A stretch of DNA of 64,000 bases, from assembly GCF_016863015.1 (NCBI RefSeq), contig NZ_BOOB01000016.1, positions 124,001 to 188,000 of the forward strand, given 5' to 3'. Shown here one piece after another: positions 22,950-44,173 of this stretch. Made by a program: the position numbers and the translations under genes. Numbering within the stretch: the stretch's first letter is position 1; each line of letters starts with the position of its first letter. Below the pieces are notes generated by a model that searched no databases, was not told the DNA's origin, and was given only the letters and a program-made list of their open reading frames with translations. The DNA comes from Microbispora amethystogenes (GTDB taxonomy: Bacteria > Actinomycetota > Actinomycetes > Streptosporangiales > Streptosporangiaceae).

Positions 22950-23028
22950 TCCGGTGCCGTTCGTGGCGTGCCGGGCCGGGGCCCGACGCCCATCCCGCGA
23001 CGCGGACGTTTTTGTCGGCGGCGCTGGC

Positions 23029-23034
23029 TAGTCT
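23029..23034 (+). promoter_or_regulatory. -10 box of the DUF5691/MoxR/DUF5682/VWA operon
   Basis: TAGTCT ends 7 bases before the GTG at 23042. The spacing is that of actinobacterial leaderless promoters; no convincing -35 is seen. It fixes the first gene's start and shows that the SWIM-less protein is made from its own promoter. Confidence 0.55.
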
Positions 23035-23041
23035 GCGGCGC

Positions 23042-24229
23042 GTGACGCAAGGACGGAGCCGGGACCAGGCCATCGAGGCGCCCTCTGCCCCCGCCGTCGC
23101 CGGTGACAGTTCCGCAGAGGAGGCCGGGGGGCGGGCGGCGGTCAGGCGCGGGCAGGCCGAGCAGCGGGAGGGCAGGGTCGCCGCGGGACTGTCGGAGCTG
23201 GAGCGGTGGCTGGCCGATCAGATCGGGCAGGGGATCGCGCAGGCGCGCCAGACGGGCCCGGCCGGCTGGGACGACCTCGCCAGACGGCTGGTCGACGCGC
23301 AGGCGCCGGGCGTGGCGGGCATGGTCACCCGGCTGCCCCGGGTGCTCGGAGCCGAGGACTGGCCGGGTCTCCTCCTGGGGGAGTACGCGCTGCTGCATCT
23401 GCTCGCCGTCGCCCACCGCCGCGCCGGCGCGCTGCCCGGGCCGCTGCGGCAGACCGTACGGACCCGGGTCGGCTTCCCCGTCACGAGGGAGTCGGTGCTG
23501 GCCGGCCCGGTGGTGCGGGACCTCTGGGACGTCGTCGGCTGCCGGGACGAGGAGCAGGAGCGGCTGGTCGCCCGGCGCGTCTGGCTGGCGGGCCGTGCGA
23601 CCGGCCGCGCGGCGATGGTGCTGTCGTTCTCGCCGGTCGGGCAGCCGCGGGAGTCGTTCCCGCCGCCGGGCACGACGATCGACGCCGACCTCGCCTTCTA
23701 TCCGGGCGCGTCGCCGCTGCGCGCCCTCGTGGCCGTGCGGCACGGTGACGTCGAGGCGGGCCCGCCACCGGGGACGGAGATCTCCCGGGTGCCCGCGCTG
23801 ATCGCGGAGGTGCTCGCGGCCGATCCCTGGGCCGACTCCTGGCCTCTGGTGCTCGCCGGGGTCGTCCCCTGCCCGGACGGCCTCGCCGACGGCGCGGGGG
23901 CCGACGTTCTGACGGCCGAGGGTACGGGAGCCGACGGTGCAGGGGCCGAGACGGAGGGGGGCGGCGATGCGGGGGCCGACGGTTTGAGGACCGCGGGTCC
24001 GGGAGCCGACAGCGAGGGGCCCGGAGGTGAGGGGCCTGGCGACGAGGGGCCCCGCGGTGAGTGGGACGCGCTGCCGCTACACCTGCCGCTGCACCCTGCC
24101 GCGGGGGTCCCGTGGCGGCTGCTGGCCGTCTCCGGAGGGCGGCCGGTGACGGTCGCCGCCGAGTGGACGCCACGCGGGCTGCTCCCACTGACGGTCTGGG
24201 ACGAGGAGGGCGAGGTGGTGCGCCTATGA
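23042..24229 (+). CDS. protein resembling SWIM zinc-finger family C-terminal region, SWIM finger absent
   Basis: A 395-residue protein, first gene of the MoxR/VWA operon. From about residue 40 (EGRVAAGLSELERWLADQI, LVDAQAPGVAGMV, LLGEYALLHLLAVAHRR, TVRTRVGFPVTRESVLAGPVVRDLW) it matches what I know of SWIM zinc-finger proteins that precede DUF5691 genes in actinobacteria. Those carry an N-terminal SWIM finger (CxCx(n)CxH); here the first 40 residues are a Ser/Ala/Gly-rich leader with no cysteine, and 22892-23041 cannot encode the missing domain in any frame. A low-complexity Gly/Ala/Glu insert (residues ~285-340) precedes a conserved end (AVSGGRPVTVAAEW). GTG 23042 is supported by the -10 box. 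Role unknown; possibly a substrate or nucleic-acid adaptor. Confidence 0.7.
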   Translation: MTQGRSRDQAIEAPSAPAVAGDSSAEEAGGRAAVRRGQAEQREGRVAAGLSELERWLADQIGQGIAQARQTGPAGWDDLARRLVDAQAPGVAGMVTRLPRVLGAEDWPGLLLGEYALLHLLAVAHRRAGALPGPLRQTVRTRVGFPVTRESVLAGPVVRDLWDVVGCRDEEQERLVARRVWLAGRATGRAAMVLSFSPVGQPRESFPPPGTTIDADLAFYPGASPLRALVAVRHGDVEAGPPPGTEISRVPALIAEVLAADPWADSWPLVLAGVVPCPDGLADGAGADVLTAEGTGADGAGAETEGGGDAGADGLRTAGPGADSEGPGGEGPGDEGPRGEWDALPLHLPLHPAAGVPWRLLAVSGGRPVTVAAEWTPRGLLPLTVWDEEGEVVRL

Positions 24230-24441
24230 CGCCGGTTCCGATCGTGGCCGCGCCTTCGCTGGCAGCGCCCACCTTGAGGATCGCGACGCCTGCCCGGCGG
24301 CAGGGCCGTCCGGCCGCTTCTCCCGGCAGCTCGCTCCGCTTCCGGAGCGGGGCGACCGGCCTCGGCGTACGCCCATCGGTGGTGGCGGTATCCGGTGGAC
24401 GGGCCCGTGCGGTTCCGCTGGCGAGAAGGGCCGTCCGATGA
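24226..24441 (+). CDS. 71-aa ORF telescoped between two operon genes
   Basis: ATG 24226 overlaps the preceding stop (ATGA), and its own TGA overlaps the ATG of the DUF5691 gene (ATGA at 24438-24441). The 71-residue product is Ala/Arg/Pro/Ser-rich (MTPVPIVAAPSLAAPTLRIA, ending ARAVPLARRAVR) with no recognised domain. In other operons of this kind I would expect the DUF5691 start to overlap the SWIM-protein stop directly, so this may be a genuine accessory peptide, or simply an open frame that keeps ribosomes moving across a 208-base insertion. The double 4-base overlap is the only evidence for translation. Confidence 0.4.
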   Translation: MTPVPIVAAPSLAAPTLRIATPARRQGRPAASPGSSLRFRSGATGLGVRPSVVAVSGGRARAVPLARRAVR

Positions 24442-25790
24442 CCGGACCATGGGAGGAACTGGTGTCCACCGCGCTGGTGGGCGCCGGCCGCCGCGCCGTC
24501 CCGCCCGAGAGCCTGCTGGAGCGGGCGGCCGAGCAGGTGGTCCGGATGCGCGCGGGGCGAAGGCCGGGGAGGGGCACGCGGCCGGCCCCCGCCGCGGCGG
24601 AGACGCTGCCGCCCGTGCCCCGCGCCGCCGCGGACCGGCTGGCCCGGATGCTCGCCGGTGAGCAGAGCAGGCTGCTGACCGAGTGGCTGGAGACGGCGGC
24701 CGCGCGGCGGCTGCGGGTGCCGGCCGCCACGATCCCCGGGCTGCTCGACCTCGGAGCGCGAGACCGGTCGATCCGCGCGCACCTGGGGGCGGTCACCGGG
24801 GCCCGGGGCCGCTGGCTCGCCGGTCTCAACTCCACCTGGGCCTACCTCCTCGCGGAACCGGCGCACGTGCCGCCGGACGAGGTGTGGGAGCTCGGCACGA
24901 GCGGAGACAGGCGCGCCTTCCTGGCCGCCGTGCGCCGGCGTGACCCGGCGGCCGCGCGGGAACTGCTGGAACGCGGCTGGAGCGCGGAGACGCCGGAGGA
25001 CCGGGCCGCCTTCGTGGCGATCCTCGCCGACGGCCTCGACATGGCCGACGAGCCGTTCCTGGAGGCGGCGCTCGACGACCGGCGCCGCGAGGTGCGGCAG
25101 GCCGCCGCCGACCTCCTCACCCGCCTGCCAGGGTCGCGGCTGGCCCACCGGATGACCGCACGGGCGTCCCGCTTCGTGACCGGGAACGGTCCCGGGCTCC
25201 GGGCGGAGCCGCCGGCGGACTGCGACGGCGCGATGGAGCGCGACGGCGTCAGGGCCCGGCCGCCCGCCGGCATGGAGACGCGGGGCTGGTGGCTGCAGCA
25301 GGTGGTGGCGCACACTCCGCTGTCGTTCTGGCCGGGCCATCTCGGCATGCCGCCGGACGAGATCGCCCGGACGAGGATCGGCGACTGGGAGCGGGAGGTG
25401 CGCATGGGTTGGACCCGGGCCGCCATCCTGCAGCGGGACACGACGTGGGCGCGTGCCCTGTTCGAGGCCGAGCCGCTGACCGACCTGCTGGCCGTGCTCC
25501 CGCCCGAGGAGCGGTCCCGCCGGGCTGCCGAGCTGGTGGCGGGCCATCCGGTGGACGGCCAGCTGGTCATGATGCTGGGCGGGGTGCCGCGGCCGTGGGG
25601 GTCCCAGCTCGCGCGGGCCGTGCTCAAGAAGATCGTGGAGACCACGCGGACCCAGCCGTGGAACGCCGGAGAGCTGATCCGGCTCGCGGGCGAGCGGTTC
25701 GACCCCGCGGCGTACGCCCACGCGGCGGAGGTGCCCGAGCTCGCCGCGACCCTGGGGTTCCGCTTCGACATGCTGAAGGAGCTTTCGTGA
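24438..25790 (+). CDS. DUF5691 protein
   Basis: A 450-residue, mostly alpha-helical protein of the DUF5691 family, which has no known function. Recognisable blocks: MTGPWEELVSTALVGAGRR at the N-terminus, LLTEWLETAAARR, LARMLAGEQS, a HEAT-like central part (AALDDRRREVRQAAADLLTRLPGSRLAHRM), GWWLQQVVAHTPLSFW, and the ending LAATLGFRFDMLKELS. HEAT-like repeats suggest a scaffold that binds another component of the cluster (inference). The start overlaps the 71-aa ORF stop; the stop overlaps the next GTG (GTGA), so it is tightly coupled to the MoxR ATPase gene. Confidence 0.82.
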   Translation: MTGPWEELVSTALVGAGRRAVPPESLLERAAEQVVRMRAGRRPGRGTRPAPAAAETLPPVPRAAADRLARMLAGEQSRLLTEWLETAAARRLRVPAATIPGLLDLGARDRSIRAHLGAVTGARGRWLAGLNSTWAYLLAEPAHVPPDEVWELGTSGDRRAFLAAVRRRDPAAARELLERGWSAETPEDRAAFVAILADGLDMADEPFLEAALDDRRREVRQAAADLLTRLPGSRLAHRMTARASRFVTGNGPGLRAEPPADCDGAMERDGVRARPPAGMETRGWWLQQVVAHTPLSFWPGHLGMPPDEIARTRIGDWEREVRMGWTRAAILQRDTTWARALFEAEPLTDLLAVLPPEERSRRAAELVAGHPVDGQLVMMLGGVPRPWGSQLARAVLKKIVETTRTQPWNAGELIRLAGERFDPAAYAHAAEVPELAATLGFRFDMLKELS

Positions 25791-26854
25791 CCACCGTTCT
25801 GCGCCCGCACGCGGAGGACCAGTTCGCCGACGAGCTGGCGATCCTCGTGAAGACCGACGACCGGCCGCGCCCGCCGGGCTGGCGGCTTTCGCCCTGGGCG
25901 GTGACGACCTACGTGCTGGGAGACGGCGGCCAGATCACGCCGAAGTACGTCGGCCCGCGCAGGATCGTCGAGGTCGCGGTGGCGACGCTCGCCACCGACC
26001 GGGCGCTGTTGCTGCTCGGCGTGCCGGGCACGGCCAAGACCTGGCTGTCGGAGCACCTCGCCGCGGCGATCTGCGGCGACTCGACCCTGCTCGTGCAGGG
26101 CACGGCCGGCACGGCGGAGGAGGCGGTCCGCTACGGGTGGAACTACGCGCGGCTGCTGTCGGAAGGCCCCTCCCGCCAGGCGCTGACGCCGAGCCCGGTC
26201 ATGCGCGCGATGGCGGAGGGACGGCTGGCCCGGGTCGAGGAGCTCACCCGCATGCCGTCCGACGTGCAGGACGCGCTGATCACCGTGCTTTCGGAGAAGA
26301 CGCTGCCGATCCCGGAGCTGGGGGAGGAGGTGCAGGCGGCCAAGGGCTTCAACGTCATCGCCACCGCCAACGACCGCGACCGCGGCGTCAACGACCTGTC
26401 GAGCGCGCTGCGCAGGCGGTTCAACACAGTCGTGCTGCCGGTCCCGGCCAGCCTGGAGGAGGAGGTCGACATCGTGGCCCGGCGGGTGGCGCAGCTCGGC
26501 CGCTCCCTGGAGCTGCCGGAGACCGTCACCGGGCTGGCGGAGATCCGCCGGGTGGTGACGGTGTTCCGCGAACTGCGCGCGGGCGTGACCGCCGACGGGC
26601 GGACCAAGGTCAAGTCACCCACCGGCACGCTCAGCACGGCGGAGGCCATCTCGGTGGTCACCGGCGGGATCGTGCTCGCCGCCCACTTCGGCGACGGCGT
26701 GCTGCGCCCGGCCGACGTCGCGGGCGGAATCCTGGGAGCCGTGGTCCAGGACCCGGTGTCCGACCGCGTGGTGTGGCAGGAATACCTGGAGACCGTCGTC
26801 CGCGACCGCGACGACTGGCGCGACTTCTACCGGGCCTGCCGCGATGCCGGCTGA
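25787..26854 (+). CDS. MoxR-type AAA+ ATPase
   Basis: A 355-residue MoxR-family AAA+ protein. Walker A is GVPGTAKT (residues 78-85); the Walker B region reads ARVEELTRMPSDVQDALITVL, with EE in place of the usual DE; sensor 1 is in NVIATANDRDRG and the arginine-finger region in SSALRRRFNTVVLP. MoxR ATPases remodel protein complexes, normally with a VWA-domain partner, here encoded two genes downstream. AAGGAG precedes the GTG at 25787, which overlaps the DUF5691 stop. It ends inside the DUF5682 gene (11-base overlap). ATP binding seems intact; hydrolysis is possible because the second acidic residue is kept. Confidence 0.9.
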   Translation: MTTVLRPHAEDQFADELAILVKTDDRPRPPGWRLSPWAVTTYVLGDGGQITPKYVGPRRIVEVAVATLATDRALLLLGVPGTAKTWLSEHLAAAICGDSTLLVQGTAGTAEEAVRYGWNYARLLSEGPSRQALTPSPVMRAMAEGRLARVEELTRMPSDVQDALITVLSEKTLPIPELGEEVQAAKGFNVIATANDRDRGVNDLSSALRRRFNTVVLPVPASLEEEVDIVARRVAQLGRSLELPETVTGLAEIRRVVTVFRELRAGVTADGRTKVKSPTGTLSTAEAISVVTGGIVLAAHFGDGVLRPADVAGGILGAVVQDPVSDRVVWQEYLETVVRDRDDWRDFYRACRDAG

Positions 26855-29800
26855 GACCGCCGCCGCCTCGCCCGGCCCGCACCCGGCCCCGAGCAAGGCC
26901 CCAAGGGGGAACCGCGCCGAGGACACCTGCGTGGGAACGGCCGGGAGCAGGGCCGAGGGCAGGCGCGAGGACACGAGCGCGGGCGCGGGTGACAGCCGGG
27001 GCGAGGGCACCGGCGTGGGCACTGGCGAGAGCCGGGGCGAGGGCTGGGCTGAGGACACCGGCATTGGCACTGGCGAGGGCCGGTTCAGGGGCATAGGCGT
27101 GGGCGCGGATGAGAGCTGGGGCGAGGGCCGGGGCGAGGACACGAGCGCGGGCGCGGGTGACAGCCGGGGCGAGGACACCGGCGTGGGCACGACCGGGAGC
27201 AGGGCCGAGGGCAGGCGCGAGGACACGAGCGCGGGCGCGAGCGACAGCCGGGGCGAGGACAGGAGCGCGGTCCGGGCGCGGGCGTGGGTACTCGGGGTGC
27301 GGCACCATGGGCCGGGATCGGCCAGGGCGGTGCGGGACGAGCTGACCAGGATCCGGCCCGATCTCGTGCTGGTCGAGGGCCCGCCCGAGGCCGACGGCCT
27401 GGTGGCGCTCGCCGCCGACCCCGGCATGCGACCGCCGGTCGCGCTCCTGGCGTACATGCCGGGGCAGCCGTCGCGGGCCGCCTTCTGGCCGTTCGCGGAG
27501 TTCTCACCCGAGTGGCAGGCCATCCTCTACGCCACCGGGGCGGGCGCCGAGGTGCGGTTCTGCGACCTGCCAGCCGGCTGCGGCCTCGCGCTCGACGCCG
27601 ACCCCGTGCGCCGCGACCCCATCGGTGAGCTGGCCCGAGCGGCGGGGTACGACGACCCGGAACGGTGGTGGGAGGACCTGGTCGAGCACCGGGGTGAGGC
27701 CGGGACGCTCGACGTCGTCGCCGAGGCGATGCGGGCCGTACGCGACGGGCACGTCGCGGAGGGCACGGAGGCCCGGCGTGAGGCATATATGCGCAGGACG
27801 CTGCGGAAGGCGGCGCGGGAGGGTTTCACCCGCATCGCGGTGGTCTGCGGGGCCTGGCACCTGCCCGCGCTGACCCTGCCTGAGCTGACACCGCCCCATT
27901 CAGCCCTGCCCGATTCAGCCCTGCCTAGTTCGGCTGTGCCTGGTTCGGCTGTGCCTGGTTCGGCTGTGCCCGGATCGGACCTGCCCAAATCGGACCTGCC
28001 CGGATCGGGCCTGTCCGAATCGACGCCGCTTGGACCGCCACCCGGGCCGGCTGTGCCCGGTTCGGCCCTGCCCGGATCGACACCGCCCGGATCGACACCG
28101 CCCGGATCGGCGCCGCTTGGATTGCCATCAGGGCCGGCACCATCCGGGCAGGGCCTGCCGGGGCGTCGCGCCGGCGGGTCGGCTCCGCCGGCCGCGACAG
28201 ACGGGCCCGGCAGCCCGCCCTCGGCGGCGGAGGACGAGCGGCTGCTGCGCGGCCTGCCCAGGGTCAGGGTGGAGATGACGTGGGTGCCGTGGACCCATGG
28301 ACGGCTCGCGGCGGGCGCCGGCTACGGCGCGGGCGTCGCCGCGCCCGGGTGGTACGAGCACCTGTTCACGGCGCCCGACCGGCCGGTGGAGCGCTGGCTC
28401 GCCCGCGCGGCGGCGATCCTGCGCGAGGAGGACCTGCCCGTCTCGTCCGCGCACGTCATCGAGGCCGTACGGCTCGCCGAGGGGCTGGCCGCGCTGCGCG
28501 GCAGGCCGCTCGCCGGGCTGTCGGAGGTCACCGAGGCGGTCAGGGCGGTGCTGTGCGGCGGCGACGAGCTGCCGGTCGAGCTGGTCCAGCGGCGCATGGT
28601 CGTGGGGGAGCGGCTCGGCCGGGTGCCGGACTCCACGCCGATGGTGCCGCTGCGGCGGGACCTGCGCGACGAGCAGCGGCGGCTGCGCATGAAGCCGGAG
28701 GCCCTGACCGGGGAGCATGACCTCGACCTGCGCAAACCGCTCGACCTCGGCCGCAGCCGGCTGCTGCACCGGCTCACCCTGCTGGACGTGCCGTGGGGAA
28801 CCCCGCGACGGGCACGCGGCAAGGGGACGTTCAAGGAGACCTGGTCGCTGGAGTGGCGCCCCGAGCTCGACGTGGCCCTCGTCGAGGCCGCAGTCTGGGG
28901 GATCACGGTCGAGGCGGCGGCGACGGCCCGCGTCCGCGACCTCGCGGGTGGCGCGGGCCTGCCCGAACTGGCCGCGCTTGTCGAGCGCTGCTTGCCGGCC
29001 CATCTCCCCGGCGCGCTGCCGCACGTGCTGGGGATGATCGAGGACCGGGCGGCGGTCGACGGCGAGGTGCGCCACCTCATGGGTGCGCTGCCCGCGCTCG
29101 TGCGGACCCGCCGGTACGGGGACGTACGCGGCACCGAGGGCCTCGCGGGCGTCACCGAGTCGATGCTGGCGCGGATCTGCGCCGGGCTGTCCCCCGCCCT
29201 GTCGGGACTGGACGAGGACGCGGCCCGCGAGATGGCCACGCTGGTGGACGGCGTCCACGCCGCGGCCGGGCTGATGGGAGAGGGCCGGTGGCTCACGACG
29301 TTGTCCGGGATCGCCCGGCGCGACGACCTGCCGGGGTTGCTCGACGGCCGGATCGTGCGGATCCTGTTCGACGCCGGGGCGCTGGAGGACGACGTGGCCG
29401 CCCGCATGGCGCGGTCGATGTCGTCCGGCAACCCCCCGGCCCGGTCCGCGGCCTGGATGGAGGGCTTCCTGTCCGGGGGCGGCCTGCTGCTCGTCCACGA
29501 CGCGCGCCTGCTCGCCACCGTGGACGCCTGGCTCACCGGCCTGTCGCCCGAGGAGTTCGTGGACGTGCTGCCGCTGCTGCGGCGCACGTTCGGCGCCTTC
29601 CCCACGCCGGAGCGGCGGCTGATCGGCAGGCGGGTCCGCTCCGGCTCCGCGCCGGGCTCCGTGCCTGGTGGCGACGGGGCGGACTACGACGACGGGCTGG
29701 CGGCGGCGGCCGTCCGGACGGTGCGGGAGATCCTGGGCCACGGAATCTCCGGCCAGGAGATTCCCGGTCATGAGATTCCCGGTCATGAGATTCCCGGTCA

Positions 29801-30002
29801 TGAGATTCCCGGTCATGAGATTCCCGGTCATGAGATTCCGCGTCGCGAAGTCTCGGGCCGCGAGGGCACAGGAGGTGAAGTGCCGGGGAGGGGGGTCCCG
29901 GGGCCTGACAGCGCGGGGCGCCGAGTCCTGCGGCGCGAGGAACCGGAGTGTGAGGAACCGGGGCGTGAGGAACCGGGGCGTGAGTGGGATGGGGGAGCCT
30001 GA
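26844..30002 (+). CDS. DUF5682 protein with three repeat tracts
   Basis: A 1052-residue protein, unusually long for DUF5682 because of inserts. Residues 1-142 are a disordered repeat leader (EDTSAGAGDSRGE units). The core starts at V143 with VLGVRHHGPGSAR (His154-His155), Glu178 in LVEGPPEADG, and GAWH (His339): the HxxG...E...GxxH layout of TraB/TIKI/EreA-ChaN-like metal-dependent enzymes (inference from motifs). Residues ~350-440 are a PG-rich pentapeptide insert; residues ~455-950 are helical and end in KETWSLEWRPELDVALVEAA, ERCLPAHLPGALPHVLGMI and SGGGLLLVHDARLL blocks; residues 972-996 are five EIPGH repeats. The start overlaps the MoxR stop and its TGA overlaps the VWA ATG. Function unknown. 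Confidence 0.82.
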   Translation: MPAETAAASPGPHPAPSKAPRGNRAEDTCVGTAGSRAEGRREDTSAGAGDSRGEGTGVGTGESRGEGWAEDTGIGTGEGRFRGIGVGADESWGEGRGEDTSAGAGDSRGEDTGVGTTGSRAEGRREDTSAGASDSRGEDRSAVRARAWVLGVRHHGPGSARAVRDELTRIRPDLVLVEGPPEADGLVALAADPGMRPPVALLAYMPGQPSRAAFWPFAEFSPEWQAILYATGAGAEVRFCDLPAGCGLALDADPVRRDPIGELARAAGYDDPERWWEDLVEHRGEAGTLDVVAEAMRAVRDGHVAEGTEARREAYMRRTLRKAAREGFTRIAVVCGAWHLPALTLPELTPPHSALPDSALPSSAVPGSAVPGSAVPGSDLPKSDLPGSGLSESTPLGPPPGPAVPGSALPGSTPPGSTPPGSAPLGLPSGPAPSGQGLPGRRAGGSAPPAATDGPGSPPSAAEDERLLRGLPRVRVEMTWVPWTHGRLAAGAGYGAGVAAPGWYEHLFTAPDRPVERWLARAAAILREEDLPVSSAHVIEAVRLAEGLAALRGRPLAGLSEVTEAVRAVLCGGDELPVELVQRRMVVGERLGRVPDSTPMVPLRRDLRDEQRRLRMKPEALTGEHDLDLRKPLDLGRSRLLHRLTLLDVPWGTPRRARGKGTFKETWSLEWRPELDVALVEAAVWGITVEAAATARVRDLAGGAGLPELAALVERCLPAHLPGALPHVLGMIEDRAAVDGEVRHLMGALPALVRTRRYGDVRGTEGLAGVTESMLARICAGLSPALSGLDEDAAREMATLVDGVHAAAGLMGEGRWLTTLSGIARRDDLPGLLDGRIVRILFDAGALEDDVAARMARSMSSGNPPARSAAWMEGFLSGGGLLLVHDARLLATVDAWLTGLSPEEFVDVLPLLRRTFGAFPTPERRLIGRRVRSGSAPGSVPGGDGADYDDGLAAAAVRTVREILGHGISGQEIPGHEIPGHEIPGHEIPGHEIPGHEIPRREVSGREGTGGEVPGRGVPGPDSAGRRVLRREEPECEEPGREEPGREWDGGA
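26942..27239 (+). repeat. disordered-leader repeats in the DUF5682 gene
   Basis: A block of about 46 bp starting at 26942 recurs almost exactly at 27194, 252 bp (84 codons) later; the sub-unit GAGGACACGAGCGCGGGCGC occurs three times (26967, 27134, ~27219). All spacings keep the frame and give EDTSAG-type peptides. Confidence 0.8.
27890..28150 (+). repeat. 15-bp-period repeats encoding PG pentapeptides
   Basis: Imperfect tandem units of 15 bp, the clearest being three copies of GGTTCGGCTGTGCCT-like sequence around 27930-27975, encode SAVPG, SDLPG and STPPG pentapeptides inserted in the DUF5682 protein between the GAWH motif and the next conserved block. Confidence 0.8.
29757..29831 (+). repeat. 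five perfect 15-bp tandem repeats (EIPGH x5)
   Basis: GAGATTCCCGGTCAT is repeated five times without a mismatch (29757, 29772, 29787, 29802, 29817), with a degenerate copy before and a partial copy after. Perfect identity marks a recent or unstable expansion. Each unit adds Glu-Ile-Pro-Gly-His. Confidence 0.95.
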
Positions 30003-31162
30003 TGGGCGGCGAGGAGGAGCGGCTGCGCCGCTGGCGGCTGGCGCTGGGCGGCGCGGCGGCGGAGAGGGCCATGGAAGGGGGCCTGGAGACGGTGCTGGAG
30101 GGCGCCGACGCCCGGATGGACGCCGCGCTCTCGGCCCTCTACGACGAGCAGGAGCGGCGGGGCGCCGGTCTCGGCGCGTCCGCGCCGCGGGTGGCCCGCT
30201 GGCTGGGAGACATCAGGGAGCACTTCCCCGCCGGTGTCGTGCAGGTCATGCAGAAGGACGCCATCGAACGGCTCGACCTGACCCGGCTGCTGCTGGAGCC
30301 CGAGATGCTGGAGGCGGTCGAGCCCGACGTCCATCTCGTGGGCACCCTGTTGTCGCTGAACCGGCTGATGCCGGAGCGGGCCCGCGAGTCGGCCAGGGCC
30401 GTCGTCCGCACGGTCGTACGGGAGCTGGAGGCGCGGCTGACGCGTCGCACCCTGGCGGCCGTCAGCGGCGCGCTCGACCGATCGGCGAGGACCCATCGGC
30501 CCAGGAGGGCGGCCGAGGTCGACTGGGACCGTACGATCCGGGCGAACCTCGGCAACTACCTGCCCGAGCGGGGGACCGTCGTGCCGTCCCGGCTCGTCGG
30601 ATACGCCCGTGGGCAGCGGGGTGTCCGGCGGGACGTCGTGCTGGCCGTCGACCAGAGTGGTTCGATGGCGGCCTCGGTGGTGTACGCGGGCGTCTTCGCC
30701 GCGGTGCTCGCCTCGATGCGCGCGCTCAGGACCTCGCTCGTGGCCTTCGACACGTCCGTGGTGGACCTCACCGACCAGCTGCGCGACCCCGTCGAGGTGC
30801 TGTTCGGCACTCAGCTCGGCGGCGGCACCGACATCAACCGGGCCGTGGCCTACTGCCAGAACCTGGTGACCCGGCCGGCCGACACGATTCTCCTGCTGGT
30901 CAGCGACCTGTTCGAGGGAGGGCCGAGGGAGGAGATGCTGCGCCGGATCGCCACCATGACCGCCGCCGGGGTCCAGGTGATCGTGTTGCTCGCGCTGTCG
31001 GACGAGGGGGCGCCGCAGTACGACCACGAGAACGCGGCGGCCCTCGCCGCGATGGGAGTGCCGGCCTTCGCCTGCACTCCGGACGCCTTCCCCGAGCTGA
31101 TGGCGGCCGCCATCGAGCGCAGGTCCTACGACCAATGCCGGATGACGCGACCCGGGCAATGA
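30002..31162 (+). CDS. VWA-domain protein of the MoxR cluster
   Basis: A 386-residue protein with an N-terminal helical part (residues 1-~210, EEERLRRWRLALGGAAAERAM and LDRSARTHRPRRAAEVDWDRT) and a C-terminal von Willebrand A domain with a complete MIDAS: DxSxS in AVDQSGSMA (Asp217, Ser219, Ser221), Thr in GGGTDINRA, and Asp in LLVSDLFEGG. VWA proteins coded with MoxR ATPases bind the ATPase and a client via the metal site. ATG 30002 overlaps the DUF5682 stop by one base (TGATG), so it is translated as the last gene of the operon. No membrane segment or signal peptide; cytoplasmic. Confidence 0.92.
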   Translation: MGGEEERLRRWRLALGGAAAERAMEGGLETVLEGADARMDAALSALYDEQERRGAGLGASAPRVARWLGDIREHFPAGVVQVMQKDAIERLDLTRLLLEPEMLEAVEPDVHLVGTLLSLNRLMPERARESARAVVRTVVRELEARLTRRTLAAVSGALDRSARTHRPRRAAEVDWDRTIRANLGNYLPERGTVVPSRLVGYARGQRGVRRDVVLAVDQSGSMAASVVYAGVFAAVLASMRALRTSLVAFDTSVVDLTDQLRDPVEVLFGTQLGGGTDINRAVAYCQNLVTRPADTILLLVSDLFEGGPREEMLRRIATMTAAGVQVIVLLALSDEGAPQYDHENAAALAAMGVPAFACTPDAFPELMAAAIERRSYDQCRMTRPGQ

Positions 31163-39362: not shown

Positions 39363-39486
39363 GAGGCGCTCCCCATGCGATCTCGTATCCCGAACCCAGG
39401 TTAAGTCATTACTCGCTTCCTGCGCGGTGCACGGATGTGACGATTGATGCGTCGTTTGTCGGCGGGACCTGTTAGCTTCCTGCGAC

Positions 39487-40587
39487 ATGCGTGTCCTGCA
39501 CACCTCCGACTGGCATCTCGGCCGCTCCTTCCACCGGGAGAGCCTGCTCGGCGCGCAGGCCGCGTTCGTCGACCACCTCGTCGAGACCGTGCGCGCGGAG
39601 CGGGTGGAGGTCGTGCTGGTCTCCGGCGACGTCTACGACCGCGCCCTGCCCCCCGTGGACGCGGTCGCGCTGTGCAACGAGGCGCTCGCCAGGCTCAAGG
39701 CGCTGGGCGCGCACACCGTGCTGATCAGCGGCAACCACGACTCCGCCGTACGACTGGGCTTCGGCGCCGATCTCATGGAGCGCGTCCACCTGCGCACCGA
39801 CCCCGCCCGGGCCTGGGAGCCGGTCACGATCGGCGACGTCGCGTTCTTCGGCATCCCCTACCTGGAGCCCGAGCTCGTCCGGGGACCGTGGGAGCTCGCC
39901 GAGCGCAGTCACACCGCCGCGCTCTCGTACGCCATGGACCGGGTCCGCGCGCACCCGGCCGCGCGCAGGGTGGTGCTCGCGCACGCGTTCGTCACCGGAG
40001 GGGAGGCGAGCGACAGCGAGCGGGACATCAGCGTCGGCGGGGTCTCCCACGTGCCGCTGAGCGCCTTCGAGGGCGCCGACTACGTCGCCCTCGGCCACCT
40101 GCACGGGCGTCAGGTGATGAGCGAGACGGTCCGCTACAGCGGCTCGCCGATCGCCTACTCCTTCTCCGAGGCCGGTCACCTGAAGGGCTCCTGGCTCGCC
40201 GACCTGGACGGCGGGCGGACGGAGTTCGTTCCGGCTCCGGTGCCGCGCCCGGTCGCGCGAGTCCGGGGCCGCATCGACGACCTGCTGACCGACGCCCGCT
40301 TCGCCCGGCACGAGGACCACTGGCTGCAGGTGACGCTGACCGACCCGGTGCGCCCGCGCGAGGCGATGGAACGCCTGCGCGGGCGCTTCCCGCACACGCT
40401 CGCGCTCGCCTTCGAACCGGACGGCGCGACCGGGAGCCCCGCAAGCCCGCCGAGGATCGCCGGGAGGGCCGAGATCGACGTGGCGCTCGACTTCGTCGAG
40501 GCGGTGCGCGGCGAGCAGGCCGACGACGACGAACGGCGTCTGCTGGAGGAGGCGGTCGAGGCGTGCCGCATCAGGGAGAGCGTGTGA
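39487..40587 (+). CDS. sbcD: SbcD nuclease subunit
   Basis: A 366-residue Mre11-type calcineurin-like phosphoesterase. Metal motifs are complete: TSDWHLGR at the N-terminus, VSGDVYDRALPP, SGNHDSAVRLGFG, VLAHAFVTG, and ALGHLHGRQ. With SbcC it forms an ATP-dependent nuclease that cuts hairpins and protein-blocked DNA ends. ATG 39487 lies 8 bases after TAGCTT (39473-39478), probably leaderless. sbcC starts 31 bases downstream, and both are read as one unit. Confidence 0.95.
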   Translation: MRVLHTSDWHLGRSFHRESLLGAQAAFVDHLVETVRAERVEVVLVSGDVYDRALPPVDAVALCNEALARLKALGAHTVLISGNHDSAVRLGFGADLMERVHLRTDPARAWEPVTIGDVAFFGIPYLEPELVRGPWELAERSHTAALSYAMDRVRAHPAARRVVLAHAFVTGGEASDSERDISVGGVSHVPLSAFEGADYVALGHLHGRQVMSETVRYSGSPIAYSFSEAGHLKGSWLADLDGGRTEFVPAPVPRPVARVRGRIDDLLTDARFARHEDHWLQVTLTDPVRPREAMERLRGRFPHTLALAFEPDGATGSPASPPRIAGRAEIDVALDFVEAVRGEQADDDERRLLEEAVEACRIRESV

Positions 40588-40618
40588 GCGGCCGGCCCGC
40601 GCCGGGTGAGGAGGCACG

Positions 40619-43600
40619 GTGAGGCTGCATCGGCTGAGCATGGTCGCGTTCGGGTCCTTCCCCGGAACGGAGGAGGTCGACTTCGACGCGCTCGGCGAGG
40701 CGGGCCTGTTCCTGATCCACGGGCCGACCGGCGCGGGCAAGACGACGGTGCTCGACGCCGTCTGCTACGCCCTGTACGGGCGGGTGCCCGGCCAGCGGGA
40801 GAGCGCCCGCAGCCTGCGCTGCGACCACGCGCCGCCCACCCGGGGCCCGTCGGTGACGCTGGAGGCGACGATCCGGGGCAGGCGCCTGCGCGTCACCCGT
40901 TCCCCCGCGTGGATGCGGCCCAAGCTCAGGGGCTCGGGTCTGGTGGAGGAGAAGGCCAAGGCCCTGGTCGAGGAGCTGACCGAGCCCGGCGGGCAGTGGG
41001 TCGCGCGCAGCACCCGCAGCGACGAGGCCGGCGACTTCATCGGCACGCTCACGGGGATGAACGCCGCCCAGTTCTGCCAGGTGGCGCTGCTGCCGCAGGG
41101 CGACTTCGCGAAGTTCCTGCGCGCCGGGGGCGAGGAGCGGCGCGAACTGCTGGAGCGGCTCTTCTCCGTCCGGGTGTTCGGCGAGGTCGAGCGGTGGCTG
41201 GCCGACCACCGCACGCGCTCCGGGCGGGAGGCGCAGGAGCTGTCCCAGCGGGTCGACTCCGTGCTGGACCGCATGCGTGGCGCGGCGGGAGACCTGGCGC
41301 TCCCCGAGGACACGGCCGACCCGGAGGCCTGGTCGGGTGAGGTGCTGAGCCTCGCCGAGGGCGCGCTCGCCCACGCGGCGACGGCCTGCGCGGAGAGCCA
41401 GGCCGGCCTGCTGTCGGCCCGGAGCCGGCTGGAGGAGGGCAGGGCCCTCGCCGACCGGCAGCGCAGGCACGCCGCCGCCCTGGCCCGGCGCCAGGAGCTC
41501 GACGCGGCGGCCGACGAGCGATCCGACCTGGAGGCGATGCTCGACGAGGCGGCGCGCGCCGACCGGGTGCTGCCGCTCGTCCGCCAGGCCGAGCAGCGCG
41601 CGGAGGCCGTGGCGAAGGCCCGCCGGGTGGCCGCCGACGCCATGCTCCGCGCGTTCCCCGGCAACTCGGACGACGCCTCGGACAGAACCGCGCGTTGGGC
41701 CTCGGGCGGAACTCCGGAGCGGCCGGGCACCGGGCCGGGTGCGGCCCGGCCCGGCGCCCACGTGCCCGGCCCCGAACAGCACGACGGGGAGCAGCCGGAC
41801 GGAAAGCGTCTGGACCCGGAGTGGTCGAACGGGGAGCGGCTGGACCTCGAGCGGCCGGATCCGGAACGGCTGGCCGCGTTGGAGCGGGAACGGCGCGACG
41901 AGATCGCCCGGGTGCGCCAGATCCTCCCGGAGGAGACGCGCCTGCGGGAGGTGCGGGACGAGCGGGCGGGCGCCGAGCGCCTGCTGGCGGAGCTGTCCGG
42001 GGAGGAAGCCCGCCTGGCCGGACGGCTCGCCGCGCTGCCCGGGGAGCGTCTCGGCGTCGAGGAGCGGCTCGCGGCGGCGCGTCGCGCGGCGGCGAGCCTT
42101 CCGGGCCTGACCGCCGCCAGGGACGCCGCGTTGCGGCTGCGTGCGGTCACCGAGGAGGCCGCGCTGCTCGACGCGGAGCTGACCCGGCTCTCCGGCGACG
42201 AGGCGCGGGCGCGGGCCGACCAGCAGGACCTGCCCGCGGCCCTGGCCGACGCCGGGGAACGGCTCCAGGGCCTGCGCGACATGGCCGCGCGGATCCCCGC
42301 GCTGGAGGCTGACGCCCGGACGGCGGAGGAGCGGCTCGGCAGCGCGCGGCTCCGCGACACGCTGACCGCCGAGCTGGACGCGGCCGAGCGCGACCGCCGC
42401 GCGGCGGTCGACCTGGCCCAGGAGCGCCGGGACCGGCTGCAGGAGGTGCGGCAGGACCGCATCGACGGGATGGCCGCCGAGCTGGCGGCCGGGCTCGTGG
42501 ACGGCCTGCCCTGCGCCGTCTGCGGCGCCACCGGGCATCCCCGCCCGGCCGAGCCCGCCGTACGGGCCGCCACGGCCGAGGACGAGCAGGCGGCGCAGGA
42601 GGCCTTCGACGCGGCGCAGCGCGCCCGTGAGACGGCGGAGGCGAACGTCGCGGCGCTCTCCTCGCGCCTCGCCGACGCGGAGTCGCGCGCCGGGGACCTG
42701 TCCCAGGAGGCCGCCGGGGCCGCCCTGGACGAGGCCCGGGACGAGCTGTCGCGGCTGCGCTCGGCCGCTTCGGCGGTCGAGGCGGCCGAGGCGGAGGCAG
42801 GCCGGCTCGCCGCCGCCCTGGAGGACGCCCGTGAGCGGGCCATGGAGCTGGCCGGGCTGCTGACCGAGACCAGGACCAGGCGGGACGCCCTGCTCGCCGA
42901 GGGGGAGCGCCTCGCCGCACGCTTGGAGGGCGACCTCGCGGACGTGGAGGCCCGGCTCAGCCGGGCCCGGTCGGAGGCGGAGACGGAGGAGGAGCTCGCC
43001 TCCCGCGCCGTCCGGCTCACGGCCGAGCTGGAGGAGCTGGGCGAGCGGGCCGCGCGGACCGGGGCGGAGCTGGCCGAGGCCCGCGCCCACCGGGACATGC
43101 TGGAGACCGGCGAACGCCGGCTGGCCGGGGTGATCGACGCCGCGCGGGGCGCGGACCCCTCGCTCGCCGCCCGTCTCGACCGCCTCTCGGAGGAGGCCGC
43201 CCTGCTGCGTGAGGCGGCCGACGCGGCGCGGACGGCGGCGGCGGCCGGGCGCGAGAGCGAGGCCGCGCGGGCCGCGGCGGCCCGGGCCGCGTCGGGAGAG
43301 GGGTTCGCGAGCGTGGAGCACGCCGCCGCGGCGGTCCGCACCCCGGAGGACCGGGAGGCGATGACCGAGCGGCTCGCACTGCTGGACGCCGAGCGCGCCA
43401 CGGTGGAGGGCCTGCTGGCCGATCCCGAGCTGGTCGCGGCGGCCGCCGAGCCGCCCGCCGGCCTGACCGAGCTGAGCGCCGCGCACGACGCGGCCGAGCA
43501 CGAGCACGGCGTGCGCGCCTCGGCCCGCCACCGCGGGCGGAGCAGGCTCGACCAGCTCACCGCGCTCGCCGGGGAACTGGACGCCGCGGTGCGCGCCCAC

Positions 43601-44173
43601 CGGCCGGCGGAGGAGCGGCACCGCCTGGCCCGGCGTCTCGCCGAACTCGCCAACGGAACTTCCGGCGACAACCGCTGGCACATGAGGCTGTCGGCGTACG
43701 TGCTCGGCGAGCGGCTGCGGCAGGTCGTGGACGCGGCCAACGAGCGCCTCGACCACATGTCGGGCGGGCGCTACCTGCTGCGGCACGACCTGAACCGGAC
43801 CGCGGGCGACCGGGGCCGGTCCGGCGGCGGGCTGGGCCTGCGGGTGCTCGACGCATGGACCGGGGTGGAACGCGACCCCGCCACCCTGTCCGGCGGCGAG
43901 AGCTTCATCACCTCCCTCGCCCTCGCACTGGGCCTGGCCGACGTCGTGACGCAGGAGGCCGGGGGCGCGGAGATCGGCACCCTCTTCGTGGACGAGGGCT
44001 TCGGCACGCTCGACGAGGACACGCTCGACGACGTGCTCGACATCCTCGACGGGCTGCGGGAGGGCGGCCGGGCGGTCGGGGTGGTCAGCCACGTCGCCGA
44101 ACTGCGCGTGCGCATCCCCGCCCAGCTCCGCGTGCTGAAGAACCGCGGCGGCTCCACCCTGTCGCACACCTGA
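40619..44173 (+). CDS. sbcC: SbcC (Rad50-type) SMC-like ATPase
   Basis: A 1184-residue Rad50-family protein: Walker A GPTGAGKTTVLD, Q-loop QVALLPQGDF, long alanine-rich coiled coils, a zinc-hook CxxC (Cys632 and Cys635 in GLPCAVCGATGHP), ABC signature LSGGESF, Walker B LFVDEGFGTLDED, and the ATHVSE-type end VVSHVAELRVRI. It tethers DNA ends and powers SbcD. A Pro/Gly/charged insert of about 70 residues (~348-420: PERPGTGPGAARPG, GERLDLERPDPERL) interrupts the first coiled coil and is not usual in SbcC. GTG 40619 has GAGGAG upstream. A bidirectional hairpin terminator follows the stop. Confidence 0.95.
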   Translation: MRLHRLSMVAFGSFPGTEEVDFDALGEAGLFLIHGPTGAGKTTVLDAVCYALYGRVPGQRESARSLRCDHAPPTRGPSVTLEATIRGRRLRVTRSPAWMRPKLRGSGLVEEKAKALVEELTEPGGQWVARSTRSDEAGDFIGTLTGMNAAQFCQVALLPQGDFAKFLRAGGEERRELLERLFSVRVFGEVERWLADHRTRSGREAQELSQRVDSVLDRMRGAAGDLALPEDTADPEAWSGEVLSLAEGALAHAATACAESQAGLLSARSRLEEGRALADRQRRHAAALARRQELDAAADERSDLEAMLDEAARADRVLPLVRQAEQRAEAVAKARRVAADAMLRAFPGNSDDASDRTARWASGGTPERPGTGPGAARPGAHVPGPEQHDGEQPDGKRLDPEWSNGERLDLERPDPERLAALERERRDEIARVRQILPEETRLREVRDERAGAERLLAELSGEEARLAGRLAALPGERLGVEERLAAARRAAASLPGLTAARDAALRLRAVTEEAALLDAELTRLSGDEARARADQQDLPAALADAGERLQGLRDMAARIPALEADARTAEERLGSARLRDTLTAELDAAERDRRAAVDLAQERRDRLQEVRQDRIDGMAAELAAGLVDGLPCAVCGATGHPRPAEPAVRAATAEDEQAAQEAFDAAQRARETAEANVAALSSRLADAESRAGDLSQEAAGAALDEARDELSRLRSAASAVEAAEAEAGRLAAALEDARERAMELAGLLTETRTRRDALLAEGERLAARLEGDLADVEARLSRARSEAETEEELASRAVRLTAELEELGERAARTGAELAEARAHRDMLETGERRLAGVIDAARGADPSLAARLDRLSEEAALLREAADAARTAAAAGRESEAARAAAARAASGEGFASVEHAAAAVRTPEDREAMTERLALLDAERATVEGLLADPELVAAAAEPPAGLTELSAAHDAAEHEHGVRASARHRGRSRLDQLTALAGELDAAVRAHRPAEERHRLARRLAELANGTSGDNRWHMRLSAYVLGERLRQVVDAANERLDHMSGGRYLLRHDLNRTAGDRGRSGGGLGLRVLDAWTGVERDPATLSGGESFITSLALALGLADVVTQEAGGAEIGTLFVDEGFGTLDEDTLDDVLDILDGLREGGRAVGVVSHVAELRVRIPAQLRVLKNRGGSTLSHT

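Follow-up and report, generated by a model that had tools for sequence, protein, structure and literature searches.

What protein machine is encoded by a run of overlapping frames around a MoxR ATPase gene and a VWA gene in Microbispora amethystogenes, and what might switch it on? The locus lies within a 64-kb stretch of DNA, referred to here as the window, and its features are listed in Table 1.

Organization of the operon

An earlier note had described six overlapping frames. Their coordinates and overlaps of 1–11 bases hold (4, 4, 4, 11 and 1 bases along the operon, from the sequence), but the second frame, of 71 aa, is unlikely to be a gene, since it has no credible homologue and most of it is missing in L055, the nearest relative read. 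The best tblastn match to this frame had an E value of 0.38 in 103 class-A loci (3 duplicates), and about 171 bases (24264–24434) are missing from L055. If the frame is discounted, the gap between the SWIM and DUF5691 genes is 208 bases. The operon is real, and its conserved genes are the remaining five of the six frames: SWIM-type, DUF5691, MoxR, DUF5682 and VWA. The longest version of the first frame opens at TTG 23012, and that TTG is part of the promoter motif. The Pfam matches above cut-off in the operon were DUF5691, AAA_5, DUF5682 and VWA_CoxE, and bpMoxR, at 24.2 bits, fell short of its cut-off of 27. A search of NCBIfam gave only matches below cut-off.

Table 1. Features of the operon and their positions in the window
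Feature	Position	Strand	Remarks
RecA-NDp/PafBC-type promoter, TTGTCGGCG-N8-TAGTCT	23012..23034	+	7 bases from the -10 to the GTG start, leaderless; consensus from PMC5656591
SWIM-family protein, SWIM zinc finger removed in frame	GTG 23042..24229	+	No Pfam match
71-aa open frame, unlikely to be a gene	24226..24441	+	No Pfam match; no credible homologue by tblastn
DUF5691, HEAT-like alpha-solenoid in the model	24438..25790	+	PF18944, E 1.2e-135
MoxR AAA+ ATPase, YehL type, Walker A GVPGTAKT	GTG 25787..26854	+	AAA_5, E 8.6e-39
DUF5682, N-terminal TIKI/Ere/ChaN-like domain and helical C-terminal part	26844..30002	+	PF18934, E 4.8e-255
First putative active-site motif GVRHHGP in DUF5682	27294..27314	+	G, R, H, H and P invariant in alignments A1 and A2
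Second putative active-site motif GAWH in DUF5682	27849..27860	+	G and H invariant in alignments A1 and A2
VWA (CoxE-like), YehP homologue, MIDAS DQSGSM	ATG 30002 (or GTG 29984)..31162	+	VWA_CoxE, E 1.6e-55

Conservation of the five genes and properties of their products

The five genes behave as the single unit that had been proposed. All five were present in 70 of the 80 named loci, and the other 10 loci reach a contig end. The same five genes were also found in Deinococcus and Rhizobium. When 248 genomes were searched, DUF5691 lay 1.2–3.3 kb from DUF5682 in all 22 genomes with an above-cut-off DUF5691, and the examined genomes did not show what the earlier note had named as refuting it, genes found mostly apart. 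SWIM and DUF5691 form a single open frame in 4 of the 80 loci and also in L055, and DUF5682 is fused to VWA in L061–L063. Computation thus supports five genes kept as one unit with fusions that pair their products. The fusions argue for a physical complex and back a VWA-DUF5682 and a SWIM-DUF5691 link; the earlier interpretation, with a MoxR/VWA engine that controls DUF5682, is partly supported.

The description of the first protein as SWIM-less proved apt: most relatives carry a SWIM finger resembling CxCPSRKxPCKH, and most of the window's genus has lost this finger by an in-frame removal. DUF5691 looks like a HEAT-like alpha-solenoid in its model (pLDDT 89.2), as had been suggested. Its leading structural matches were mostly to HEAT/ARM proteins, the best with a Z of 9.6 over 121 residues, although such helical matches can be coincidental, and the best Foldseek E value was 0.012. 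In the PDB, MoxR matched midasin and NorQ, and VWA gave only weak matches to ribosomal proteins. No report of MoxR together with SWIM, vWA and HEAT was found in print in a search of mostly open literature.

Relationship to E. coli yeh and other MoxR-VWA systems

The operon represents, in actinobacteria, a widespread putative protein machine of bacteria, and its counterpart in E. coli is yehLMPQ. These E. coli genes, which encode homologues of MoxR, DUF5682 and VWA and a SWIM protein, were present in 5,162 of 5,426 genomes. YehL is 42% identical to the window MoxR over 352 residues, YehM is 33% identical to DUF5682 over the N-terminal 202 residues and 26% beyond, and YehP is 37% identical to VWA. 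YehQ is annotated as a SWIM protein, yet it had no BLAST match to the window SWIM protein. The yeh locus also differs in having the DUF4132 gene yehI upstream, and no DUF5691 match was found there in a control search. In a MoxR tree of 35 rows, YehL grouped with classes A, B, C1 and C2, and RavA and an AAA_3 protein from the window's own genome (L211) fell apart from them, on saturated branches that leave the rooting weak. The earlier note mentioned neither the E. coli homologues (yehL, yehM, yehP and the SWIM protein) nor the DNA-damage type of the promoter. No functional study of yehL, yehM, yehP, yehQ or yehI was in print among the matches listed in a search of mostly open literature.

Other systems share the MoxR-VWA pair. 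NorQ-NorD is one such pair. RavA-ViaA is another, but RavA lies apart from the window MoxR group (on its saturated branch) and ravA-viaA has no neighbouring SWIM, DUF5691 or DUF5682 gene. The MoxR-vWA ternary conflict systems (Kaur et al. 2020) resemble the operon in adding a conserved third protein to the pair. Their third protein is VMAP, iSTAND, FtsH or a beta-propeller, whereas it is DUF5682 in the operon; neither SWIM nor YehL appears in the available part of the main text of that paper. Other literature was also drawn on (PMC7159879, PMC10910872, PMC3893208, PMC6254334, PMC7979712, PMC8223512, PMC6789036, PMC11804915, PMC9380542, PMC10652928).

A promoter of the DNA-damage type

The leaderless promoter that had been proposed is real. 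It matches the RecA-independent DNA-damage promoter targeted by PafBC, RecA-NDp, for which PMC5656591 gives the consensus tTGTCRgtg-8nt-TannnT, and departs from it at position 8, a lower-case, less conserved t. The motif was counted only where an in-frame start codon followed 4–10 bases downstream. Among 94 unique SWIM genes, it was exact at 49, present with at most one mismatch at 62 and with at most two at 77, compared to 0, 0 and 1 in equally long downstream stretches; 17 of the 94 lacked it even at two mismatches. These counts exclude L078, L085 and L089, which are duplicates of L041, L046 and L051; with duplicates, the numbers are 51, 65 and 80 of 97. Of 27 Streptomyces-named loci, 24 had an exact motif before the SWIM gene, and none of the 27 had more than one mismatch there.

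The window's own genome contains nine exact sites, compared to one for the backward pattern, and these precede uvrA, sbcD, a YdjM-family gene and a radA-like gene, among others. Before sbcD, the strict motif was found at 15 sites (13 without duplicates). Three other MoxR-DUF5682 loci also have an exact motif close to their start: L062 and L174, where it is about 80 bases upstream of the first gene, and L070. An exact motif was absent from all four class-B loci in the window's genus, two of three C1 loci and 10 of 11 C2 loci, and no exact RecA-NDp motif was found in the 20-kb E. coli yeh stretch. A loose SOS-box pattern, CTG-N10-CAG, had no match before yehL and one match about 350 bases before yehI. 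GAACN4GTTC had one match in L058, about 1.1 kb before the DUF4132 gene, and none in L005, L059 or L060.

These data give computational support to a predicted DNA-damage promoter of the RecA-independent (PafBC) kind. Its match to the switch of DNA-repair genes points to a possible role in surviving DNA damage. The operon shares promoter sequence and spacing with the PafBC regulon, as do the own-genome sites at uvrA, sbcD and the radA-like gene, although that regulon is described mainly in mycobacteria. Two Pup-ligase-family genes were found in the own genome, and pafBC was not recognized in a 14-kb stretch around one of them (near pafA). According to a paper on S. venezuelae, that species does not conserve the mycobacterial PafBC motif, and the authors were unable to tell whether Streptomyces has a PafBC-type response. 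Membership of the operon in the PafBC regulon, or a link of PafBC to SWIM or MoxR, was not found in print among the matches listed, mostly from open literature.

A putative hydrolase domain in DUF5682

Residues 1–204 of the DUF5682 model, a domain taken from a larger model, aligned with 7w5z_E (Z 9.3, rmsd 4.5, 174 residues aligned), ChaN 2g5g (Z 7.8, rmsd 5.4, 160 aligned) and HopBA1 5t09 (Z 7.1, rmsd 4.2, 146 aligned), Z values in a range that the alignment tool calls middling. Foldseek found no match of the model to the PDB at E ≤0.001, and the DUF5682 profile had no match to PDB sequences. With hhalign, the probability was 1.6% for Ere and 0.9% for E. coli YbaP compared to 0.1–0.3% for controls, which is not significant; the input left out 4 of 67 DUF5682 rows, and TraB was represented by YbaP alone, without L204. 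YbaP itself had no useful match in the PDB, and the TraB and ChaN families were each found in one genome in the phylum.

In the DUF5682 model, H10/H11, E34 and H195 are invariant in 51 of 51 rows, and the equivalent columns in 16 of 16; the His/Glu positions are likewise invariant in E. coli YehM and in the fused class. We read them as following the TIKI/Ere/ChaN pattern of a His after strand 1, a Glu after strand 2 and a second late His. DUF5682 has no equivalently placed counterpart of the first catalytic Glu of Ere and RRSP. DUF5682 resembles the TIKI/TraB/Ere/ChaN superfamily in an alpha/beta domain (to which ChaN and HopBA1 align with the middling Z values above) and in its His/Glu positions, but there is no significant profile match and DUF5682 adds a long helical C-terminal part. 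The model and alignments are suggestive, not proof, of a putative hydrolase with a TIKI/Ere-like N-terminal domain, perhaps a peptidase. DUF5682 and DUF5691 were not found in print in mostly open literature. The label "metal-dependent" given earlier to DUF5682 is unsupported, because there is no direct evidence for it and the nearest fold relatives include Ere and RRSP, which are reported to be metal-independent, although Tiki itself is metal-dependent.

Possible functions of the operon

We give about an even chance to the explanation that the operon, as the branch of a MoxR-VWA-DUF5682 family found in actinobacteria, specifies an ATP-driven remodelling machine that is induced by DNA damage and has a putative hydrolase as its working end. 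Single-stranded DNA would activate PafBC and thereby switch on the operon, and the SWIM and HEAT-like proteins may recognize a target where DNA is damaged. Coupled through VWA, the MoxR ring would remodel this target and either present it to the DUF5682 hydrolase or switch DUF5682 on. Only tentatively do we suggest an ATP-dependent hydrolase machine of an undescribed kind, found from Actinomycetota to E. coli and induced by DNA damage, in which a MoxR ring linked by VWA to a TIKI-type peptidase, with target recognition by SWIM and HEAT-like proteins, would act on proteins at damaged DNA.

Another possible, if doubtful, explanation is a maturation chaperone, in which MoxR-VWA inserts a cofactor into its client DUF5682 or remodels it, with DNA damage as just one of the triggers that turn the genes on. 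NorQ/NorD and CoxD/CoxE are precedents for cofactor insertion or remodelling. The midasin and NorQ matches and the CoxE-like VWA fit such a chaperone, and known MoxR proteins help to mature enzyme complexes. However, it does not account for the DNA-damage promoter or for the SWIM and HEAT-like subunits, and the reported metal independence of Ere and RRSP, if not of Tiki, speaks against it. We think it unlikely that the operon encodes a stress chaperone of a general kind that has no DNA target, with the DUF5682 domain as a non-enzymatic binding module. It is reported that PafBC also controls oxidative-stress genes, that the fold relative ChaN binds haem and that PMT, another such relative, lacks the catalytic residues, but the invariant His/Glu positions argue against a non-enzymatic module.

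It seems quite unlikely that the operon serves phage defence or conflict in the manner of the MoxR-vWA ternary systems. The systems of Kaur et al. are powered by MoxR-vWA pairs, and a regulator activated by single-stranded DNA could answer infection too. DUF5682 matches occurred in 36 of 72,556 plasmid records, some of them chromosome-sized, and a class-B YehI-like protein, alone among four proteins from related loci, weakly matched PADLOC WGR_XIII (16.4 bits). However, PADLOC models matched none of the five window proteins, and none of 54 pattern matches in viral_contigs was confirmed. Together with the core status of the yeh genes in E. coli, this makes defence less likely and leaves the invader-responsive process suggested earlier with no positive evidence. 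Gene content is also stable across loci, and the promoter is common to the operon and repair genes. The only phage-labelled record was one unverified scaffold, which is probably bacterial DNA; its MoxR groups with a Fusobacterium MoxR.

The favoured explanation, a DNA-damage-induced remodelling machine, offers a testable function, a DNA-damage phenotype, for genes that belong to the E. coli core and are conserved in several phyla, and for which no function was found in print in searches of mostly open literature. In addition, the exact or nearly exact promoter at Streptomyces SWIM genes bears on the question of a PafBC-type response in Streptomyces.

Conservation and layout of the five-gene unit

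At least 586 relatives were confirmed by a search for related loci, and the best 80 were used as named loci. Since almost all of these are Actinomycetota, with one cyanobacterium in addition, the set is skewed to close relatives. All five genes were found in 70 of the 80 loci, and the remaining 10 each reach a contig end. Where a SWIM gene was present (74 loci), 42 loci were co-directional and 32 had SWIM-DUF5691 divergent from MoxR-DUF5682-VWA. Across 248 genomes sampled from the phylum, DUF5682 was found in 24 and DUF5691 in 22, not counting five DUF5691 matches below the cut-off. The two genes were 1.2–3.3 kb apart in 22/22 genomes (Fisher p 1.7e-29, ignoring shared ancestry). The refuting condition named in the earlier note, that the genes are mostly apart in other genomes, did not hold in the genomes studied. 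The same five genes are present in Deinococcus and Rhizobium. Methylosinus has four of the five annotated and no annotated VWA, and Hymenobacter has DUF5691, an ATPase, DUF5682, and VWA; its DUF5691 protein has the length (~1,000 aa) of a possible SWIM fusion.

Features of the window
Feature	Position	Strand	Remark
Operon promoter motif	23012-23034	+	RecA-NDp/PafBC type
Operon	23042-31162	+	SWIM-family (zinc finger lost), DUF5691, MoxR ATPase, DUF5682, VWA; packed
71-aa second frame	24226-24441		probably not a gene
Segment missing from L055	24264-24434		~171 bases, SWIM-DUF5691 interval
Tandem repeats	23885-24102, 26918-27284, 27893-28138, 29749-29984		periods 12-87 bases
sbcD promoter	39456-39478		second exact RecA-NDp-type motif, directly before sbcD
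sbcD and following frame	39487-44173
Long frame after sbcD	40619-44173		taken for sbcC
GAACN4GTTC sites	9821, 12823

The tight run of genes described in the earlier note stands, and adjacent frames overlap by 1–11 bases if the second frame of 71 aa is included, but the count of six probably does not. The 71-aa frame was rejected as a gene and is probably not one, because it had no credible homologue among 103 related loci (three duplicates) and ~171 of its bases are missing from L055, the nearest relative read. Once it is discounted, the gap between the SWIM gene and DUF5691 is 208 bases; in L055, a single open frame spans both. The tandem repeats add low-complexity segments that lengthen the SWIM protein and DUF5682.

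The same note had listed a SWIM-less protein, and the SWIM-family protein of the window indeed lacks the zinc finger. An alignment of ten proteins showed the finger and its surroundings excised in frame, with the remainder conserved. The CxC...CxH pattern occurs in 69 of the 74 SWIM genes of the 80 named loci, and was present in 10 and absent from 14 of 24 class-A (window-type) loci from the family and class. Within the genus (15 genomes listed; 13 loci read, our own included), only G002 keeps it. The finger is likewise missing from two loci outside the genus, L043 and L045.

A promoter motif of the DNA-damage type

The SWIM start is preceded by TTGTCGGCG-N8-TAGTCT, with GTG 7 bases further. 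The published RecA-independent DNA-damage consensus is tTGTCRgtg-8nt-TannnT (PMC5656591), PafBC works via this promoter (PMC6789036), and single-stranded DNA activates PafBC (PMC11804915). We searched for TTGTC[AG]G.G-N8-TA...T, leaving the eighth position unconstrained. The window holds two exact sites, at the operon and sbcD, and 100 shuffles gave none. Nine sites were found in the whole genome (8.1 Mb), compared to one for the backward pattern. The genes behind them are uvrA, sbcD, a YdjM-family gene (Pfam), this operon, a gene for an AAA_16 protein, two genes whose products had no Pfam match, a gene with a KaiC-type ATPase, zinc ribbon, and ChlI (Pfam) that we read as a probable radA, and a protein that we read as HNH-like, for which the Pfam search gave no match. 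Proteins that carry the motif at their start and have no Pfam match include L219/L225 and L220/L226 (C38 and C46 of this genome). The two GAACN4GTTC sites are similar to actinobacterial LexA boxes.

The motif occurred 71 times in 103 class-A loci (2.03 Mb) and the reversed control 0 times. Without three duplicated loci, 67 sites remained: 49 at SWIM starts, 13 before sbcD, 4 at SWIM-strand contig edges (three with a reading frame resembling a SWIM start), and 1 unexplained. The sbcD pairing was found again in 13 of 100 unique loci. Scoring of SWIM starts required an in-frame start codon 4–10 bases downstream. By this measure, 49 of 94 unique SWIM genes had the exact motif, 62 had it with at most one mismatch, and 77 with at most two, compared to 0, 0, and 1 in equally long downstream stretches; 17 of the 94 had no motif even at two mismatches. 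Streptomyces-named loci (among L101–L154) had the exact motif at the SWIM gene in 24/27 cases and within one mismatch in 27/27. A paper on S. venezuelae, by contrast, reports that in a first search the PafBC motif of M. smegmatis did not prove to be conserved in that species (PMC9380542); the Streptomyces evidence here comes from the SWIM gene.

Related classes and the yeh operon

The second copy in the genome, L005, belongs to class B (DUF4132-containing); its order, DUF4132-MoxR-DUF5682-VWA-SWIM, matches E. coli yehI-yehL-yehM-yehP-yehQ. Sinorhizobium has MoxR-DUF5682-DUF4132-VWA-SWIM. In class C1 (L061–L063), one protein beside MoxR fuses DUF5682 and VWA with motifs and MIDAS intact, and class C2 (11 loci read, L064–L074) combines VWA and MoxR with a distant DUF5682. 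An exact motif lies ~80 bases before the first gene in the C1 locus L062 and in L174, a plasmid DUF4132-MoxR-DUF5682 locus, and within the start of the VWA frame in the C2 locus L070. It is missing from all four class-B loci, 2/3 C1 loci, 10/11 C2 loci, and the E. coli yeh stretch.

Identity to E. coli is 42% for MoxR-YehL, 33%/26% for DUF5682-YehM, and 37% for VWA-YehP; BLAST gave no match between the window SWIM protein and YehQ. Of 5,426 E. coli genomes, 5,162 carry ≥80% of the yehLMPQ segment at a single location. The whole yeh block is missing from one genome-reduced E. coli strain (PMC10652928), and is thus dispensable in the laboratory.

One scaffold labelled 'Bacteriophage sp.', L176 (MT835988), is unverified and encodes MoxR and DUF5682; its MoxR clusters with a Fusobacterium MoxR, and the DNA is probably bacterial. 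Some "plasmid" records (L173, L178, and H11) are chromosome-sized, at 2.1, 2.8, and 11.9 Mb, which inflates the plasmid counts for this family.

Predicted structures of DUF5682 and DUF5691

In the AlphaFold model of DUF5682 (residues 145–975, mean pLDDT 82), an alpha/beta domain at the N-terminus is followed by a helical C-terminal part. Foldseek gave no match at E ≤0.001. In VIA-align, model residues 1–204 superposed on 7w5z_E (Z 9.3, rmsd 4.5, 174 aligned), and nearly the same residues on ChaN 2g5g (Z 7.8, rmsd 5.4, 160 aligned) as well as on HopBA1 5t09 (Z 7.1, rmsd 4.2, 146 aligned); the remaining rows inspected match the helical part. ChaN and HopBA1 are listed as TIKI relatives in PMC6254334. 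The essential residues of RRSP are two His and two Glu; EreC relies on H50, E78, and H289 together with E47. All 51 close and 16 wider DUF5682 sequences share G.RHH.P, the Glu of VLxEGP, RE..M, and the G/H of GxxH without change. We read putative counterparts of the RRSP/EreC His and Glu in the window's DUF5682, although the first Glu has none. Since this Glu is unmatched and the profile comparison with Ere and YbaP was not significant, we describe the modeled N-terminal domain as TIKI-like rather than as a proven member.

The DUF5691 model (pLDDT 89) is nearly all helical. HEAT/ARM proteins make up most of its leading matches, the best reaching Z 9.6 over 121 residues; at such scores, helical proteins can match by coincidence.

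Proposed function

The conserved unit, the gene fusions, and the promoter sequence were established computationally. The data suggest that DUF5682 carries a putative hydrolase domain; a less likely explanation is that DUF5682 is the client of a maturation chaperone. Less likely still, the operon could be a general stress chaperone or a defence system. Earlier papers had already named the YehL subfamily (PMC3893208) and described MoxR-vWA conflict systems with four other third components (PMC7159879). The open-licence literature yielded no publication on DUF5682 or DUF5691 and, among the matches listed, none tying this gene set to DNA damage.

SWIM and WGR domains occur in DNA-repair proteins, and the class-B YehI relative has a WGR domain. 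Most likely, the operon acts in a DNA-damage response: damage would yield single-stranded DNA, and PafBC would then turn on the leaderless operon transcript. The SWIM protein and DUF5691, which its model suggests is a HEAT-like scaffold, would recognize a target that MoxR-VWA would remodel, and DUF5682 would either cut this target or become switched on.
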